64,000 bases of DNA from Frigoribacterium sp. (GTDB lineage Bacteria; Actinomycetota; Actinomycetes; Actinomycetales; Microbacteriaceae): NCBI GenBank assembly GCA_025408445.1, contig JANYIZ010000004.1, positions 1 to 64,000 on the forward strand, given 5' to 3'. The position numbers and the translations under genes were made by a program. The notes under the pieces were generated by a model, which did no database searches, was not told the DNA's origin, and worked only from the letters and a program-made list of their open reading frames with translations. Position 1 is the stretch's first letter, and every line of letters begins with the position of its first letter. Shown here piece after piece: positions 56,466 through 64,000 of the stretch.

Positions 56466-58928
56466 ATGACTACTCCCGAAATCCCCACCGCAGAGCCCCG
56501 TGGGGAACGCATCGATATCGTCGACGTCTCCACCGAGATGGAGGGGTCGTTCCTCGAATACGCGTACTCCGTGATCTACTCCCGGGCCCTTCCGGACGCA
56601 CGCGACGGCCTGAAGCCAGTGCAGCGTCGCATCCTCTACCAGATGACCGAAATGGGCTTGCGCCCCGATCGTGGGCATGTCAAGTCGGCGCGGGTCACCG
56701 GCGAAGTCATGGGCAAGCTGCATCCGCACGGCGATGCTTCGATCTACGACGCGATGGTGAGGCTCGCCCAGAGCTTCATCCTGCGTGTTCCGCTGATCGA
56801 TGGGCATGGCAACTTCGGCACCCTGGACGACGGGCCGGCTGCGCCGCGCTACACCGAAGCCCGCCTTACCGCCGCCGCAATGGCCATGACCGAGGACCTC
56901 GACGAAGACGTGGTCAACTTCGTGCCCAACTATGATAATCAGTTGACCCAACCGGAGGTGCTGCCGTCGGCCTTCCCCAATCTGCTGGTCAACGGCGCAT
57001 CCGGAATCGCAGTCGGTATGGCGACCAACATGGCACCGCACAACCTCATCGAGGTCGTGGGCGCAGCACGACACCTGATTGCGCACCCGGACGCCTCGCT
57101 CGACGACCTCATGTCGTTCGTGCCCGGCCCCGACTTGCCGACCGGAGGCACGATCATCGGCCTCTCCGGAATCCGCGACGCCTACGAGACGGGGCGCGGC
57201 AGTTTTCGCACTCGGGCGCGAGTATCCGTCGAGAACATCACCACACGCAAGGCAGGACTCATCATCACCGAGCTGCCCTACATGGTCGGCGCGGAGAGGG
57301 TGATCGAGAAGATCAAGGACGGAGTCAACTCCAAGAAGCTCAACGGCATCTCGGATGTCACGGACCTTACCGACCGAAAACACGGCCTGCGCCTCGTGGT
57401 GGGCATCAAGACCGGATTCAGCCCGGATGCCGTGCTCGAGCAGCTCTATCGCTTCACCCCGCTCGAGGATTCGTTCAACATTAACAACGTCGCCCTCGTG
57501 GATGGAGGGCCGAAGACTCTTGGCCTTCGTGAACTGCTTCAGGTCTATGTCGACCACCGCATCTCCGTCGTCACCAGACGCAGCCAGTTCCGCCTGGCGC
57601 GCAAGAACGAGCGGCTGCATCTCGTCGAAGGCCTGCTCGTGGCCATCCTCGATATCGACGAGGTAATCCAGGTGATCCGCGCGAGCGATGACGGCGAGCA
57701 GGCCCGAGTGCGGCTGATGGATGTCTTCGACCTCAGCCAGATCCAGGCCGAGTACATCCTCGAACTGCGATTGCGTCGACTCACCAAATTCTCTCGAATC
57801 GAACTCGAGGCGGAGCGCGACCAATTGCTCGCCGAGATCGCGGCCCTTGAACAACTGCTCACCGGCCCAGAGCGCGTGCGCCAGCTGGTCTCCGACGAGC
57901 TGGAGGAGGTCTCCGAGCGCTTCGGTACCCCACGCCGCACACTTCTCACCGAGGCGCGACCGCCGGTCGGGACAACAGTCGCCGCCCGGGCTGCCGCGGC
58001 CGTGCTGGAGATCGCGGACACGCCCTGCCTGGTGTTCCTGTCGACGACCGGGCGGGCCATCCGTGTCGACCTGTTCGATGGTGCCTCGGAGTTGCCGGAG
58101 CGCGCTGCCCGGCGCACCAAGCACGATGCGATCCTGTCGTCGATCGTGACGACCAGCCGGTCAGAGATCGGCGCGGTCACTTCGCTCGGGCGGCTCATCC
58201 GTCTCACGCCTGTCGACCTGCCGGTCGTACCGGAGAACTCGATCCAGCTCGCCGCAGGCACGCGGATCTCGGACTACCTCGCAATCGACGCCAAGAAGGA
58301 ACGGGTGCTCGCGCTTGTCTCGCTCACATCCTCTGACGCGATCGCTATCGGTACCCGGCAGGGCGTGGTCAAGCGGGTAACTCCCGGAGACTGGGCCAAC
58401 CGGCCCGAGTTCGAGCTGATCGCGCTGAAGCCGGGGGACGCGGTGGTTGGGGCGCGCCAGTCCGCGGAGACGGATGATTTGCTCTTCATCACCTCGGAGG
58501 CGCAACTCCTGCATTTTCCCGCATCGACGGTGAGACCGCAGGGGCGCTCCGCCGGTGGAATGGCTGGCATCAATCTTGGCGCAAAGGCCACCGTAATCTT
58601 CTTCGGCTCGGTCGACCCCACAGCCGAGGTCGCCGTCGCGACAGTGTCGAGCAGCAGCGCGACTATCGCCGGGATGGACTCCGGACGGGCGAAGGTCTCG
58701 ATGCTGTCCGAGTTCCCTGGCAAGGGGCGGGCGACCGGTGGTGTGCGAGCCCACGCCTTTCTCAGAGGCGAAGATATGCTCTCCGTGGCGTGGGCAGGGC
58801 CGTCCCCAGCGCTCGCTGTGGGAACTGATGGCGGGGTGCGGACTCTTCCGGATGCCGGTGCCAAGCGCGACGCATCGGGCACGCCGCTCGAGAGTATCGT
58901 CGAGTCGATCGGCGCCCCGATCCGTTGA
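56466..58928 (+). CDS. parC: DNA topoisomerase (gyrase/topo IV) subunit A
   Basis: An 820-aa type IIA topoisomerase A subunit. The breakage-reunion domain begins EGSFLEYAYSVIYSRALPDARDGLKPVQRR and has the quinolone-pocket KLHPHGDASIYDAMVRL. The catalytic tyrosine is in AAPRYTEARLT (Tyr129). The C-terminal DNA-wrapping part shows several GyrA-like repeats (for example GTRQGVVKRVTPGDW). The encoded protein sits with parE in this block, convergently; whether it is a true topo IV or a second gyrase-like pair cannot be told from sequence alone. Confidence 0.93.
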   Translation: MTTPEIPTAEPRGERIDIVDVSTEMEGSFLEYAYSVIYSRALPDARDGLKPVQRRILYQMTEMGLRPDRGHVKSARVTGEVMGKLHPHGDASIYDAMVRLAQSFILRVPLIDGHGNFGTLDDGPAAPRYTEARLTAAAMAMTEDLDEDVVNFVPNYDNQLTQPEVLPSAFPNLLVNGASGIAVGMATNMAPHNLIEVVGAARHLIAHPDASLDDLMSFVPGPDLPTGGTIIGLSGIRDAYETGRGSFRTRARVSVENITTRKAGLIITELPYMVGAERVIEKIKDGVNSKKLNGISDVTDLTDRKHGLRLVVGIKTGFSPDAVLEQLYRFTPLEDSFNINNVALVDGGPKTLGLRELLQVYVDHRISVVTRRSQFRLARKNERLHLVEGLLVAILDIDEVIQVIRASDDGEQARVRLMDVFDLSQIQAEYILELRLRRLTKFSRIELEAERDQLLAEIAALEQLLTGPERVRQLVSDELEEVSERFGTPRRTLLTEARPPVGTTVAARAAAAVLEIADTPCLVFLSTTGRAIRVDLFDGASELPERAARRTKHDAILSSIVTTSRSEIGAVTSLGRLIRLTPVDLPVVPENSIQLAAGTRISDYLAIDAKKERVLALVSLTSSDAIAIGTRQGVVKRVTPGDWANRPEFELIALKPGDAVVGARQSAETDDLLFITSEAQLLHFPASTVRPQGRSAGGMAGINLGAKATVIFFGSVDPTAEVAVATVSSSSATIAGMDSGRAKVSMLSEFPGKGRATGGVRAHAFLRGEDMLSVAWAGPSPALAVGTDGGVRTLPDAGAKRDASGTPLESIVESIGAPIR

Positions 58929-58980
58929 GCGCTGCGTCGATCGTGACTTCCCGCGGTACGAACTCCGGTGCCGTCTCCTG

Positions 58981-59089
58981 CGCGAAATGCAGGACTCTGC
59001 GTGACAGGAGTGACGGGAGGGCCTCATCCGCAACACCCGTCACACCCGATCCTGCATTTCGAACAGGGCTGGATGCGCAACAGGGCTGC
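58981..59089. repeat. 109-bp direct repeat, copy 1, with nested inverted repeats
   Basis: Begins CGCGAAATGCAGGACTCTGC and is identical over 109 bp to the second copy. Outer inverted arms CGAAATGCAGGA (58983-58994) and TCCTGCATTTCG (59050-59061) and inner arms GTGACGGG (59010-59017) and CCCGTCAC (59036-59043) could fold into a two-step hairpin. It lies between convergent parC and parE. No coding potential is seen. Confidence 0.9.
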
Positions 59090-59184
59090 ACGCACAACCT
59101 GCTGGCGCGCTGAACACAGGTACGCACAACTGACTGACGCGCTGAACACAGGTAGGCACGACTGGCTGGTGCGGTGAACAGAGC
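59090..59184. repeat. Three tandem ~32-nt imperfect repeats
   Basis: Units of 32, 32 and 31 nt at 59090-59121, 59122-59153 and 59154-59184 share the pattern CGCACAAC...CGCGCTGAACACAGGT with scattered changes. They lie between the two 109-bp repeats. No protein or RNA function is evident. Confidence 0.8.
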
Positions 59185-59186
59185 CG

Positions 59187-59295
59187 CGCGAAATGCAGGA
59201 CTCTGCGTGACAGGAGTGACGGGAGGGCCTCATCCGCAACACCCGTCACACCCGATCCTGCATTTCGAACAGGGCTGGATGCGCAACAGGGCTGC
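59187..59295. repeat. 109-bp direct repeat, copy 2
   Basis: A perfect copy of the repeat at 58981, offset by 206 bp. It contains the same outer arms (59189-59200 and 59256-59267) and inner arms (59216-59223 and 59242-59249). After it, CGCGCAACAGG-type fragments continue to about 59340, and the remaining 70 bp to the parE stop hold no gene. Confidence 0.9.
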
Positions 59296-59407
59296 GCGCA
59301 ACAGGTGCGGAAACCTGCACGCGCAACAGCGCCATCCGCTGGACAATCCGGTCTGCACACCGAATCGGGGGCCGATCGATTGGCAAGCCTTACGGATGCG
59401 TCGCCGG

Positions 59408-61507
59408 CTACACGTCGATGCGTTCGCGTGACAGCCCGTCCGACCCCGCAATGATGAAGTCCTTGCGGGGGGCGACATCGTTGCCCATGAGCAGCTCGAA
59501 TACTCGCTCGGCGTTGACAGCGTCGGTGATTTGCACGCGACGGAGCGTGCGGTGATGCCGGTCCATGGTGGTGGTTGCCAACTGGTCGGCATCCATCTCG
59601 CCGAGACCCTTGTAACGCTGGATCGGATCCTGGTAGTGCTTGTTCGCCTTCTTGAGTCCGGCGAGCACCCCGTTGAGCTCGGCTTCGGAATAGGTATAGA
59701 TCGTCTCATTCGGCTTCGTACCCGGATTCATCACGATCACCCGGTGCAGTGGCGGCACCGCGGCGTAGACGCGTCCGTCGCGGATCATGTCGGGCATGTA
59801 ACGGAAGAACAGAGTGAGCAGCAGCGTGCGAATGTGCGCGCCATCGACATCCGCATCGCTCATGATGATCACCTTGCCGTACCGCGCGGTCGCGAGGTCG
59901 AAGCTGCGACCGGAGCCGGCGCCAATCACCTGGATGATCGAGGCGCACTCGGCATTTCCGAGCATGTCCGACACGGTGGCCTTCTGCACGTTCAGGATCT
60001 TTCCCCGGATCGGGAGCAAGGCCTGGTATTCGCTGTCGCGGGCCAGCTTCGCCGTTCCGAGCGCCGAGTCGCCCTCCACGATGAAGAGCTCACTATTGGC
60101 GACATCCGAGCTTCGGCAGTCAACGAGCTTCGCCGGAAGGGACGAGTTCTCGAGGGCATTCTTGCGTCGCTGGGTTTCCTTGTGCGCGCGCGCCGAGATG
60201 CGGGACTTCATCTCCGCAACAATCTTGTCGAGCACGAGAGCCGACTGCGTCTTGTCGTCGCGCTTCGATGAGCCGAACTTCTCCGCCATGGTCTTTGCCA
60301 CCACTGCGGCGACCAGGTTTCGAACCGCGGGAGTTCCGAGTATCTCCTTCGTCTGCCCCTCAAACTGTGGCTCAGGAAGGCGCACGGTCAACACCGCCGT
60401 GAGGCCGGCAAGCACATCGTCCTTCTCGATCTTCTCGGTGCTGTTCGCGCCCGTACCGACCTTGAGCCGTCGCGCGTTCTGTTCGACCTGCGCGCGGAGA
60501 AACTTGAGCATTCCCGCTTCGAAACCGGCTTGGTGAGTGCCGCCCTTCGGGGTGGCGATGATATTCACGTAGCTTCGGAACACCGTCTCGTACCCGGTGC
60601 CCCAGCGGAGGGCAATATCGACCTCGCACTCGCGCTCAAGCTCGGTTGCGACCATGTGGCCCTTGTCGTCGAGCACGGGAACGGTCTCGTGGAACGTGCC
60701 GGAGCCGGTCATTCGCCAGGTCTCGGTGAGGGCACTGTCCGGGGCGAGGAAGTCGACGTACTCAGCGATGCCACCGTCGAAGCGAAACAGTTCATGGGTG
60801 GGCTCGGCGCCACGCTCGTCGGTGATGTCGATGCCGAGGCCACGCACCAGGAATGCGGTCTGACGCGCACGGGCCGCGAGCTCCTCCGTTTGGAAGGTCG
60901 TACCGCGGCTGAATATTTGCGGATCCGCCCAGTAGCGGATCCGGGTGCCGGTGACACCGCGAGCTACCTTGCCGACCGCGCGCAATTCGCTCTTGTTCTC
61001 GAACGGGGTGAACACCGCGTCCACTCTCGGCCCCTCGGCGGAGTCGGCAAAGATGCCGGGCTCACCACGGTGAAATGACATCGCCCAAGTCTTGCCATCG
61101 CGGTCAACTTCGACATCCAGGCGCTCTGAGAGAGCATTGACGACGGATGCACCGACGCCGTGCAAGCCCCCGGAGGCGCCATACGAACCGCTGCCGAACT
61201 TGCCGCCGGCGTGGAGTTTGGTGAACACCACCTCGACTCCAGAAAGTCCGGTTTTCGGCTCGATATCAACCGGAATACCCCGGGCGCGATCACGCACTTC
61301 TACACTGTTGTCATTGTGCAGGACGACGCTTATTTTGTCGCCGCTGCCTCCAAGCGCCTCGTCGACAGAATTGTCAATGATTTCCCACAGGCAATGCATC
61401 AGGCCCCGCGAGTCGGTGGATCCTATGTACATGCCGGGACGCTTGCGTACGGCCTCGAGTCCCTCGAGCACCGACAGGTGTCGTGCGGAATAGTCTGAGC
61501 TCGCCAC
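59408..61507 (-). CDS. parE: DNA topoisomerase (gyrase/topo IV) subunit B
   Basis: A 699-aa ATPase subunit. GHKL motifs are LWEIIDNSVDEALGG and GASGGLHGVGASVVNALS. The transducer region holds QTKEILGTPAVRNLVAAVV. The TOPRIM domain has ELFIVEGDSALGTAKLARDSEYQALLPIRGKILNVQKA and the metal-binding SDADVDGAHIRTLLLTLFFRYMP. The C-terminus includes RYKGLGEMDADQLATTTMD. The start GTG 61507 (VASSDYSARHLSVLEG) has AAGGAG six bases upstream. It faces parC convergently across the repeat region. Confidence 0.95.
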   Translation of the reverse strand: MASSDYSARHLSVLEGLEAVRKRPGMYIGSTDSRGLMHCLWEIIDNSVDEALGGSGDKISVVLHNDNSVEVRDRARGIPVDIEPKTGLSGVEVVFTKLHAGGKFGSGSYGASGGLHGVGASVVNALSERLDVEVDRDGKTWAMSFHRGEPGIFADSAEGPRVDAVFTPFENKSELRAVGKVARGVTGTRIRYWADPQIFSRGTTFQTEELAARARQTAFLVRGLGIDITDERGAEPTHELFRFDGGIAEYVDFLAPDSALTETWRMTGSGTFHETVPVLDDKGHMVATELERECEVDIALRWGTGYETVFRSYVNIIATPKGGTHQAGFEAGMLKFLRAQVEQNARRLKVGTGANSTEKIEKDDVLAGLTAVLTVRLPEPQFEGQTKEILGTPAVRNLVAAVVAKTMAEKFGSSKRDDKTQSALVLDKIVAEMKSRISARAHKETQRRKNALENSSLPAKLVDCRSSDVANSELFIVEGDSALGTAKLARDSEYQALLPIRGKILNVQKATVSDMLGNAECASIIQVIGAGSGRSFDLATARYGKVIIMSDADVDGAHIRTLLLTLFFRYMPDMIRDGRVYAAVPPLHRVIVMNPGTKPNETIYTYSEAELNGVLAGLKKANKHYQDPIQRYKGLGEMDADQLATTTMDRHHRTLRRVQITDAVNAERVFELLMGNDVAPRKDFIIAGSDGLSRERIDV

Positions 61508-61730
61508 GTGAATCTCCTTCGTGGCGCCGCCGTCATCGTCAGAGCAGGGAATGGTTGGTGGCCGGGCCGGGTTCAACACTAATGACAGCGGATGCGCTCG
61601 CCGGCATCCGACACCCCCACGACTGGGTGCGTACGCGTACAGCGAAATACGCAGGTTTTGTCTTCATGATTCAACACAGCCGTGTTTGTATAGGGAGAAC
61701 AAGTTATTGATAGGAAACGAGGAGCAACTC

Positions 61731-61967
61731 ATGACTCAGAGTGCACCCGACACGACAGCGGTGGAAATGCTCGACGCGAACCACCAGCTCACCGCATCGG
61801 ACCGTTGCGACAGCTGTGGCGCGCAGGCGTACATCCGAGTCGCCATCGGTTCAAGCGAACTGTTGTTCTGCGCCCACCACGGCAAGAAGTACCAGGAAAA
61901 GCTAGCGACCATCGCCAGCAACTGGCACGACGAGTCGGACCGCCTGCTTCAGGGCAACCGCTCCTGA
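61731..61967 (+). CDS. DUF7455-type small zinc-binding protein
   Basis: A 78-aa protein. LTASDRCDSCGAQAYIRVAIGSSELLFCAHH puts Cys26, Cys29, Cys47 and His50 in a likely zinc site, followed by KKYQEKL and a short acidic end. ATG 61731 has GAGGAG in its upstream sequence. It is divergent from parE, with 223 bp between their starts, in which no other gene was seen. The function is unknown. Confidence 0.85.
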   Translation: MTQSAPDTTAVEMLDANHQLTASDRCDSCGAQAYIRVAIGSSELLFCAHHGKKYQEKLATIASNWHDESDRLLQGNRS

Positions 61968-62047: not shown

Positions 62048-63091
62048 TCACTCGAGGAAGCGGCGGCGGATGCGCGGACTCAGGCGGGTGACGATCTCCT
62101 CGCCGATCGTGCCGAGTTGGTCTGCCCACTCCTGTAGCGTCGGCTCAGCGGCCGTGCCGCTACCGAAGAGCACTGCAGTATCACCGAGTTGAATGGGGGA
62201 ATCCCCTGTGTCCACCGTCAGCCGGTCCAGTTGCACCGAGACGACCTCGAATCGCGCTCCGTCAATCGAGACCTGCACCGTACCCACAGCCGAGCTGGGG
62301 ATTCCGTCACCGTAACCAATTCCGAGGGTCGCTAGGCCCTCCTCCTTCGCGATTACCGGTGCGGTAAGCGTCATTACCGGTTCGAGCCGGAGCGAAGACG
62401 GGCTGACCCCCCCGCCAGGCGAGATTCCGTAGGAGAAGGCGCCGATTCGCACCAGGTCAAACCGAGAATCGGCGCGACCGAACGCGGCGGCACTGGCCGC
62501 AAGATGCCGCACGGTGACGCTCGCTCCGAGTCTCTCTGCGACCGCGATCGCCGAGCGGAACCGCTCAATCGCCACGGTGTCGTCGCCGTCGGATGCCTCC
62601 GCGATATGAGTCCAGATACCGACGAGCTCGATGCGGTCAGATAACGCGAGCGAGCGAGTCACCAGGCCGGGCCAGTCCTCGATGCTGGCGCCGTTTCGGT
62701 GAAGGCCGGTGTCGATCTTGAGGTGCACCCGCGCCCGACCGGACACGCTGGCCCGCGCAATCGCCTCCAACTGGCTGAGTGTCGAGACCCCGAAGTCAAG
62801 CTCGGCCTCGATCGCCCTGCCGTAGTCCTCGTTGGGCCCGAGTAGCCAGGTGAACACGGCCACATCGCGCGGGATACCGTTCTCCCGCAACTCGAGGCCG
62901 GTTTCAATGTCGAGGGTACCGATCCAAGCGACCCCGGCCGCGACGGCCGCGCGCGCAACCGGCAGGAGACCGTGCCCATAAGCATCCGCTTTGACGACGG
63001 CCATCAGGGCGGCCGGAGCGACCCTCTCCGCGAGCCGAGCGAGGTTACGTCGGTAGGCGGAGAGGTCGATCGTGGCCGTTGGCCCATTCAT
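62048..63091 (-). CDS. alr: Alanine racemase-like protein with barrel intact but no catalytic tyrosine loop
   Basis: A 347-aa fold-type III PLP protein. The N-terminal barrel is complete. The PLP lysine is Lys34 in AVVKADAYGHG, Arg132 (DTGLHRNG) and His162 (THIAEA) match the usual active-site residues, and Arg215 (LVRIGAFSYG) matches the PLP pyridine partner. The C-terminal domain is altered: the usual loop bearing the VSYGxTW tyrosine is missing (about 18 residues between VIAK and EEGLATLG), and MD of the usual CMD segment reads LD. Tyr260 of GYGDG is kept. Its ATG overlaps the upstream gene by 4 nt. Confidence 0.8.
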   Translation of the reverse strand: MNGPTATIDLSAYRRNLARLAERVAPAALMAVVKADAYGHGLLPVARAAVAAGVAWIGTLDIETGLELRENGIPRDVAVFTWLLGPNEDYGRAIEAELDFGVSTLSQLEAIARASVSGRARVHLKIDTGLHRNGASIEDWPGLVTRSLALSDRIELVGIWTHIAEASDGDDTVAIERFRSAIAVAERLGASVTVRHLAASAAAFGRADSRFDLVRIGAFSYGISPGGGVSPSSLRLEPVMTLTAPVIAKEEGLATLGIGYGDGIPSSAVGTVQVSIDGARFEVVSVQLDRLTVDTGDSPIQLGDTAVLFGSGTAAEPTLQEWADQLGTIGEEIVTRLSPRIRRRFLE

Positions 63092-63759
63092 CGATACACC
63101 CGAGGCAGGTGACTGCCGAAGACGGAGACGATCTCCGCACTCGGGCGTCCGAGGCTACTCGCCCAGTCCCAGACGGCAGGCTCGCCAGTGGAAGGGTCCC
63201 CGAAAACGACCGCCTCGTCACCGATCAGTGCCGAGTCCTGCCCGAGATCGAGCACAAGGGCGTTCATCGCCACGCGACCGACGATGCGACGCAGCGCCCC
63301 ACGGAGTCGGAGGGATCCTCTGTTGCTCGCGATGCGATCCAGGCCATCGGCGTAGCCGATTCCCACGAGCGCGAGATTGGTGCGCGAGATCGCGGTCCAG
63401 GTATATCCGTAAGAAACGCTTTCGCCGGCGTCGATGGTCTTTGTGCCCACCACCAAAGCGCTGACCCGCATCGCCGGCTTCAGCTCGAGATCCGGCAAAA
63501 GTCCATAGAGAGCCGAACCCGCAGAAACGAACTTCGCATCGGGGCCCAACGACGCGGCGGAATCGATGTCAGGTGCACAGGCACCACCATCGACGGCGGC
63601 GCCAATCACCGCAGTGAGGCCATGACCGTAGGCATCCGCCCTGACGTCGGCCACGACGATTCGAGAACCGGCCCGGCGAACGAGCACGGCCGCGTTGTCG
63701 CGGATCGCCAAGAGATCGATGCTCGCACTGTGAATGCGTGAAACGGGCAGTATCGTCAC
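63088..63759 (-). CDS. Alanine racemase-like protein with catalytic tyrosine domain and a collapsed barrel
   Basis: A 223-aa relative of alanine racemase. The C-terminal domain is complete, with the tyrosine loop SVSYGYTW (Tyr117), VGIGYADG (Tyr136), and VGRVAMNALVL where Met165-Asn166 occupy the usual Met-Asp. The N-terminal part keeps only the first strands: RADAYGHG at 40-47 has Arg40 where the PLP lysine should be, and about 150 barrel residues are gone before SALYGLLPD. It cannot bind PLP covalently by itself. It lies 31 bp after the GatD-like gene. Start GTG 63759 is the only start codon in this frame near the N-terminus. Confidence 0.75.
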   Translation of the reverse strand: MTILPVSRIHSASIDLLAIRDNAAVLVRRAGSRIVVADVRADAYGHGLTAVIGAAVDGGACAPDIDSAASLGPDAKFVSAGSALYGLLPDLELKPAMRVSALVVGTKTIDAGESVSYGYTWTAISRTNLALVGIGYADGLDRIASNRGSLRLRGALRRIVGRVAMNALVLDLGQDSALIGDEAVVFGDPSTGEPAVWDWASSLGRPSAEIVSVFGSHLPRVYR

Positions 63760-63790: not shown

Positions 63791-64000
63791 CTAGATCCTT
63801 GAGAATACGTGCTTCGCGTGGGCGATGATCACTTCTCGGGCCCGCGTGGCGTAGTGCTCGAGGCTTTCGTTGAGCTCTGACCGAACAACGGTGAATCCAC
63901 GGCGCTTACCGATCGACGCGATGATCGCATCGGTGATCAGCGGATTGAGGGGCAATACCGGCCCACCGACCTGCGTACCGATTGCGATCGTGCCGCTCGC
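63791..64000 (-). CDS. gatD: GatD-like glutamine amidotransferase, C-terminal end (runs off the right edge)
   Basis: The last 69 residues end HAKHVFSRI. They align with the end of Staphylococcus GatD, the glutaminase partner of MurT in amidating D-glutamate of lipid II: GTQVGGPVLPLNPLITDAI here versus GTYLHGPILPKNYEITD there, with the same tail. The catalytic histidine of GatD (in YLHG) is replaced by glycine (codon 63965-63967). The cysteine half is outside the window. The identification is from memory of the family and is moderate. It lies upstream of, and co-directional with, the two racemase-like genes. Confidence 0.65.
   Translation of the reverse strand, partial: ASGTIAIGTQVGGPVLPLNPLITDAIIASIGKRRGFTVVRSELNESLEHYATRAREVIIAHAKHVFSRI

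Follow-up and report, generated by a model that had tools for sequence, protein, structure and literature searches.

Near one end of the window, by which we mean the whole 64,000-nucleotide stretch of DNA that was analysed, lie two genes of the alanine racemase (Alr) family, one encoding a short and one a long chain, with the short gene upstream and the long gene downstream (Table 1). Stop and start codons overlap in an ATGA that likely couples the translation of the two genes, and an overlap of 4 nt was present in 9 of the 14 pairs compared. Both open reading frames, together with Lys34 of the long chain and Arg40 and Tyr117 of the short one, are where the sequence-only reading had placed them. 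The same genome also encodes a full-length ordinary Alr between glmS and tsaE on another contig (C19), and three Ala_racemase_C domains in total. We refer to the window pair and its counterparts as accessory, and to the genes at the glmS-tsaE position as housekeeping.

Table 1. Features of the accessory locus and its surroundings, in window coordinates.
Feature	Position	Strand	Remarks
Short subunit gene, 223 aa, GTG start	63088..63759	minus	Alr-family ORF; upstream gene, read 63759-63088
Long subunit gene, 347 aa, ATG start	62048..63091	minus	Alr-family ORF; downstream gene, read 63091-62048
ATGA stop/start overlap of short and long genes	63088..63091	minus	
AAA codon, long-chain Lys34 (= GsAlr Lys39)	62990..62992	minus	Conserved in 86/86 longs
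TAC codon, short-chain Tyr117 (= GsAlr Tyr265')	63409..63411	minus	Conserved in 85/85 shorts
AGG codon, short-chain Arg40 at the PLP-lysine position	63640..63642	minus	
gatD-like gene (GATase_3), 3' end	63791..64000	minus	Conserved neighbour; murT next upstream in genome
DUF7455 gene	61656..61967	plus	Conserved neighbour, 39/41 split loci
parE/gyrB-type topoisomerase subunit gene	59408..61579	minus	Conserved neighbour, 39/41 split loci

The order DUF7455-parE-pair-gatD-murT is kept at the accessory locus. Flanks could be compared at 41 loci, a set that includes two Agreia housekeeping loci; among these short-long loci with long flanks, murT was found at 37 and parE at 39. Separately, overlapping ORFs at 58160-59430 of the window, between the parC-like and parE genes, repeat one stretch, MLRMRPSRHSCHAESCISR, which suggests direct DNA repeats in this intergenic region.

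Two incomplete racemase chains with complementary residues

Pfam matches the long chain to Ala_racemase_N from end to end (1-220 of 220, 185 bits) and to Ala_racemase_C at 28-126 of 127. Missing from it are about 19 residues on either side of and including the position of the catalytic Tyr265 of GsAlr (the Tyr loop), as well as the nearby residues of the Arg290, Arg309 and Met312 type, and it has Glu at the position of Tyr354, within the motif GTIGEEIVTR. The short chain contains a complete Ala_racemase_C (1-127 of 127) and matches 48 of the 220 Ala_racemase_N positions, most of the barrel being gone. The earlier description of the long chain as having Lys34 and the barrel residues without a Tyr loop therefore stands, whereas the implication that only the short chain has a C-terminal domain does not, because the long chain keeps most of one; that of the short chain, with its Tyr117 loop and C-terminal domain, Arg40 in place of the lysine and most of the barrel absent, agrees with both Pfam and the residue alignment. 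Against TIGR00492, which has a curated cut-off of 168 bits, the long chain scores 197.5 bits and the short chain 117.3 bits. Since each chain has both a barrel start and a C-terminal domain, the pair is not one gene cut in two, and fission of a single alr gene can be ruled out. As far as the sequences can tell, the pair is instead two paralogues that have decayed in complementary ways.

The AlphaFold2 model of the window short chain (52 homologues) has a pLDDT of 94.6 and a pTM of 0.90, and VIA-align places 216 of its 223 residues on Mycobacterium tuberculosis Alr (6scz) at 1.8 A with a Z of 25.5. Because the model superposes on Alr in this way, we regard the short chain as an orderly Alr half from which most of the barrel has been excised, and not as debris. 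Pairwise dN/dS values (NG86) range from 0.09 to 0.41 in shorts and longs alike, from which we infer that both chains are maintained. Sequencing error or a pseudogene as the origin of the pair is ruled out by these values and by the existence of more than 70 intact loci.

We aligned 86 distinct longs and 85 distinct shorts at GsAlr positions. K39, Y43, K129, R136, H166, R219 and G221 are each present in all 86 longs, which means that the PLP and ring contacts Y43, R136, H166 and R219 are without exception; Y265 is present in none, R309 in 10, R290 is replaced and M312 is not among the residues listed for these chains. The shorts have Y265, R290 and M312 in 85 of 85, Y284 (or F) likewise in all, and R309 in 77. 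Their barrel residues are gone, and K39 is found in 0 of 85, its position being occupied by R, T, A, S or G and never by K. The PLP lysine and the second base Tyr265 are thus both present in a pair and never both in one split chain; the only polypeptides with both catalytic residues are the fused Pseudoclavibacter-type proteins described below, where they lie in different halves. Position 354 is D or E in accessory longs, and Tyr in the Agreia housekeeping longs and in the fused proteins. On these alignments, the complementary loss of residues is far beyond chance. The longs L054, L153, L157 and L165 retain the Tyr loop, at full length in the last three, with Gly or Ala at the Tyr265 position; they are apparent intermediates of its loss.

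Published Alr structures show that Lys39 and the PLP contacts come from one chain of the dimer and Tyr265', Tyr284', Arg290', Arg309' and Met312' from the other (PMC3485190, PMC3245724). Because these two groups sit on opposite chains, a long chain combined with a short chain would have one complete site, and a long-long or short-short dimer would have none.

Distribution and history in the Microbacteriaceae

The family search, with the short chain as query and then with an alignment of shorts, covered 398 genomes; named genomes were also scanned with an alignment of longs, and loci were classified residue by residue. With duplicates removed, the distinct short-long loci numbered about 76 and came from more than 20 Microbacteriaceae genera. 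There were also 6 long-short loci (Agreia), 2 loci with a full-length, lysine-less upstream partner, 25 at which both genes are full-length and 41 where one Alr stands by itself, the last number including a few fused chains that the classifier counts as full. Split loci occur in Leifsonia, Diaminobutyricibacter, Pseudoclavibacter, Agreia, Salinibacterium, Pseudolysinimonas, Humibacter, Pontimonas, Frigoribacterium-named genomes and others. Each loopless long adjoins, or is fused to, a Tyr-bearing partner without the lysine, and no orphan long or short was found among the classified Microbacteriaceae loci, the only incomplete ones being two at contig ends, one whose divergent short escaped the classifier and one with a frameshifted long (Homoserinibacter). 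The check proposed with the sequence-only reading, whether the two proteins always occur together, thus came out in favour of the pair, neither having been found alone across the short-long, long-short and dead-full-length-long loci. These counts are lower bounds, because one divergent split pair (L244, in genome G258 of genus g85) obtained a family-search score no higher than that of ordinary Alr. Beyond the family, 297 class-level genomes were searched and the outside matches examined were ordinary full-length Alr, so within this sample we regard the split as limited to Microbacteriaceae, its absence elsewhere being unproven.

A few loci deserve separate mention. The long gene of Homoserinibacter gongjuensis (L109/L175) is broken in two frames at about 5131-6347 of L109 next to an intact short gene, which reflects either an assembly error or a recent loss. 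One record titled Acidobacteria bacterium G2_35 (L057) contains a typical Microbacteriaceae pair, with the residue pattern of L031 and with parE, gatD and murT as neighbours; this metagenome-assembled genome or its title is probably misassigned. Two different pairs (L182 and L224) lie a few kb apart on one contig (C9) of genome G225, the second with a partly shortened barrel, Gly at the lysine position and Trp at that of Tyr43.

All seven Agreia-type genomes (99-100% complete) have exactly four Ala_racemase_C domains, belonging to two shorts and two longs, and in none of the seven is there a barrel that has the lysine together with its own Tyr, leaving no full-length Alr. One of the Agreia pairs, in the order long-short and with Tyr354 kept, lies between glmS and tsaE-tsaB, the ordinary place of alr, and no D-amino-acid transaminase scored above the family cut-off in Agreia. 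At the glmS-tsaE locus of all nine Pseudoclavibacter-type genomes there is a single fused long-short chain, whose long half has the lysine and Tyr354 without a Tyr loop and whose short half has Ser at the lysine position and a Tyr loop; the complementary residues are invariant in the nine fusions, and no other Ala_racemase_C protein was found in two Pseudoclavibacter-type genomes (G136 and G389). A model of the housekeeping fusion (pLDDT 70.6, pTM 0.74) places 338 residues of the long half on 1vft at 2.9 A with a Z of 25.9; the alignment covers the N-terminal half only, and it concerns the fusion and not the window long chain. Short-long fusions are found in the accessory lineage (L161, and L098, whose N-terminal half is still a full barrel lacking the lysine), and natural fusions of the two halves are thus known in both gene orders. 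With no other Alr present, alanine racemisation in Agreia and in the two Pseudoclavibacter-type genomes must fall to the split or fused form, an activity that we infer and that would be in doubt only if an unrecognised enzyme made D-Ala there.

Relatives of these bacteria appear to preserve earlier arrangements. The alr locus of Herbiconiux, Subtercola and Planctomonas has two full-length tandem genes, the upstream one with Tyr354 and the downstream one with Asp354, and Subtercola, the sister genus of Agreia, has its two intact genes at the same place as the Agreia pair. The trees group the Agreia housekeeping long with the upstream Tyr354 copies of Subtercola and Herbiconiux, and the Agreia housekeeping short nests within their downstream Asp354 copies, in a tree of few columns with support of 99 for the Agreia rows and of 80-94 for the nesting forks. 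These placements indicate reciprocal loss: the Subtercola arrangement becomes that of Agreia once the upstream copy is without its Tyr loop and the downstream copy without its lysine, and a change of this kind implies an ability of the two chains to pair while both were still full-length. A single clade (support 98) contains all D/E354 barrels. A single origin of loop loss is ruled out (AU p=1.1e-5); five changes are the fewest, four of them forced by well-supported branches, and treating the losses in Agreia and Pseudoclavibacter as one event is not rejected (p=0.21). The intermediates L078 and L089 have a full-length upstream barrel with Ser in place of Lys. The trees, with the AU test, indicate that the split arose more than once in Microbacteriaceae. 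Its likely ancestor is the single full-length Alr at glmS-tsaE (window genome, Agromyces), which shares the synteny and, unlike the pair, is one gene with both catalytic residues.

A proposed composite active site and its substrate

We think it highly probable that the long and short chains form an asymmetric heterodimer with one composite racemase-type active site, the pairing, the single site and the catalysis all being inferences made without a model of the complex or biochemical data. In this enzyme the long chain would contribute the PLP lysine, the phosphate and ring contacts Y43, R136, H166 and R219, and, in place of the gate tyrosine Tyr354, an acidic residue. The short chain would supply the second catalytic base, Tyr265', across the interface, along with the entryway residues Y284', R290', R309' and M312'. 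From the residue pattern it follows that the mirror-image second site would be gone, and the heterodimer itself would go back to duplicated alr genes that each lost what the other kept. The original proposal of a split heterodimer is supported in this respect by the complementarity of the residues, adjacency without orphans, fusions in both orders and Agreia genomes without another Alr.

What the window pair acts on is less clear. The reading we favour is that it racemises a basic amino acid, with the normal Alr elsewhere in the genome making D-alanine. The accessory locus has murT and gatD as neighbours, and MurT-GatD act on the D-Glu of lipid II. In Alr, Tyr354 makes the entry narrower and sets the specificity for alanine, and lysine and broad-specificity racemases are without it (PMC3485190). 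Peptidoglycan in related genera is of the B2-gamma type, with D- and L-diaminobutyrate in Herbiconiux (PMC10011130), diaminobutyrate in Subtercola and L-DAB with D-Orn in Agreia (PMC5945732). Because of the D or E at position 354, the murT-gatD neighbours, the racemases that lack Tyr354 and the D-DAB and D-Orn of related genera, we infer, as the most economical guess, that the accessory pair makes a D-diamino acid for the bridge of type-B peptidoglycan by racemising diaminobutyrate, ornithine or lysine, an inference from indirect evidence alone to which we give even odds. It also remains quite conceivable, though we would not favour it, that the heterodimer is real and the accessory pair is a second alanine (or serine) racemase, as the family is overall one of alanine racemases, the long chain scores as one against TIGR00492, and loss of Tyr354, while affecting specificity, is no proof of a basic substrate; such a role fits poorly with the fixation of D/E354 in the accessory clade when Tyr354 is kept in the pairs of the housekeeping locus, and with the adjoining murT-gatD. 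An acidic residue for Tyr354 near the PLP phosphate is unusual, and the accessory pair might have other chemistry.

The pairing itself has alternatives. Acting by itself, whether as a monomer or a homodimer, the long chain could use some other group as second base, which would leave the short chain as a regulatory or stabilising pseudo-enzyme; all PLP contacts are indeed kept in the long chain, and activation of a catalytic partner by a dead paralogue has a precedent in trypanosomatid deoxyhypusine synthase (PMC3663545). We consider this improbable, because a purely regulatory short chain need not keep Tyr265, R290, R309 and M312, the very residues that would make the long chain's site complete, as 77 to 85 of 85 shorts do, and because the housekeeping enzymes of Agreia and of the Pseudoclavibacter type show this division again. 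Even less plausible is a short chain that pairs as a modulator with the normal full-length Alr instead of with the long chain: the window genome has such an Alr and the interface is homologous, but the strict short-long adjacency, the fusions and the genomes that have pairs and no full-length Alr are hard to reconcile with it. That the pairs are functionless, decaying redundant duplicates is barely credible, for although tandem duplicates often degenerate and one long is frameshifted, the dN/dS values, the intact loci, the invariant catalytic residues, the confident fold of the short chain and its place in the sole Alr of Agreia all oppose it. Returning to the single-site heterodimer, the entire account, in which it is obligate, originated more than once when tandem paralogues lost complementary parts, with the Agreia housekeeping alr locus among the cases, was fused in the Pseudoclavibacter type and serves as a D-diamino-acid racemase in its accessory form, is offered only tentatively, at slightly less than even confidence for all of its parts together.

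Homodimeric Alr (EC 5.1.1.1; GsAlr 1SFT, MtAlr 1XFC, Streptomyces lavendulae 1VFH) has in common with the pair its fold, the PLP lysine, Tyr265', Arg219, Arg136, His166 and the entryway residues; the pair differs in being two different proteins with half the catalytic residues each and at most one site per dimer, and its accessory copies differ further in having D/E for Tyr354. The gate Tyr354 is also absent from lysine racemase Lyr (Thr391) and broad-specificity Bar (Ala393; PMC3485190), but each of these enzymes is a homodimer in which one chain has the two catalytic bases, and neither has Asp or Glu at 354. The active complex of trypanosomatid deoxyhypusine synthase is made up of an impaired paralogue and one that has no activity by itself (PMC3663545). 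That is an unrelated enzyme in unrelated organisms, described as a case of allosteric activation, whereas the Alr pair would divide both catalytic bases between its chains, has arisen repeatedly and also exists as fused single chains. In the open-access papers searched, no alanine racemase was described as heterodimeric or split, subscription papers not being covered.

Textbooks present alanine racemase as a homodimer with an active site to which both chains contribute, and the enzyme is a drug target. A heterodimeric or fused version with one composite site, evolved repeatedly, would be a new form of a known enzyme, with its activity for now inferred. Homology-based annotation, which calls each half an alanine racemase, would miss the split. 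How a homomer becomes an obligate heteromer by complementary loss is a long-standing question, and it becomes testable here with real intermediates, as living genera keep the stages from one gene through two intact tandem genes, a dead full-length partner and a truncated partner to a fused chain. For bacteria with type-B peptidoglycan, the accessory pair is a candidate route to their D-diamino acids, and Agreia and Pseudoclavibacter-type bacteria would have an Alr of unusual build.
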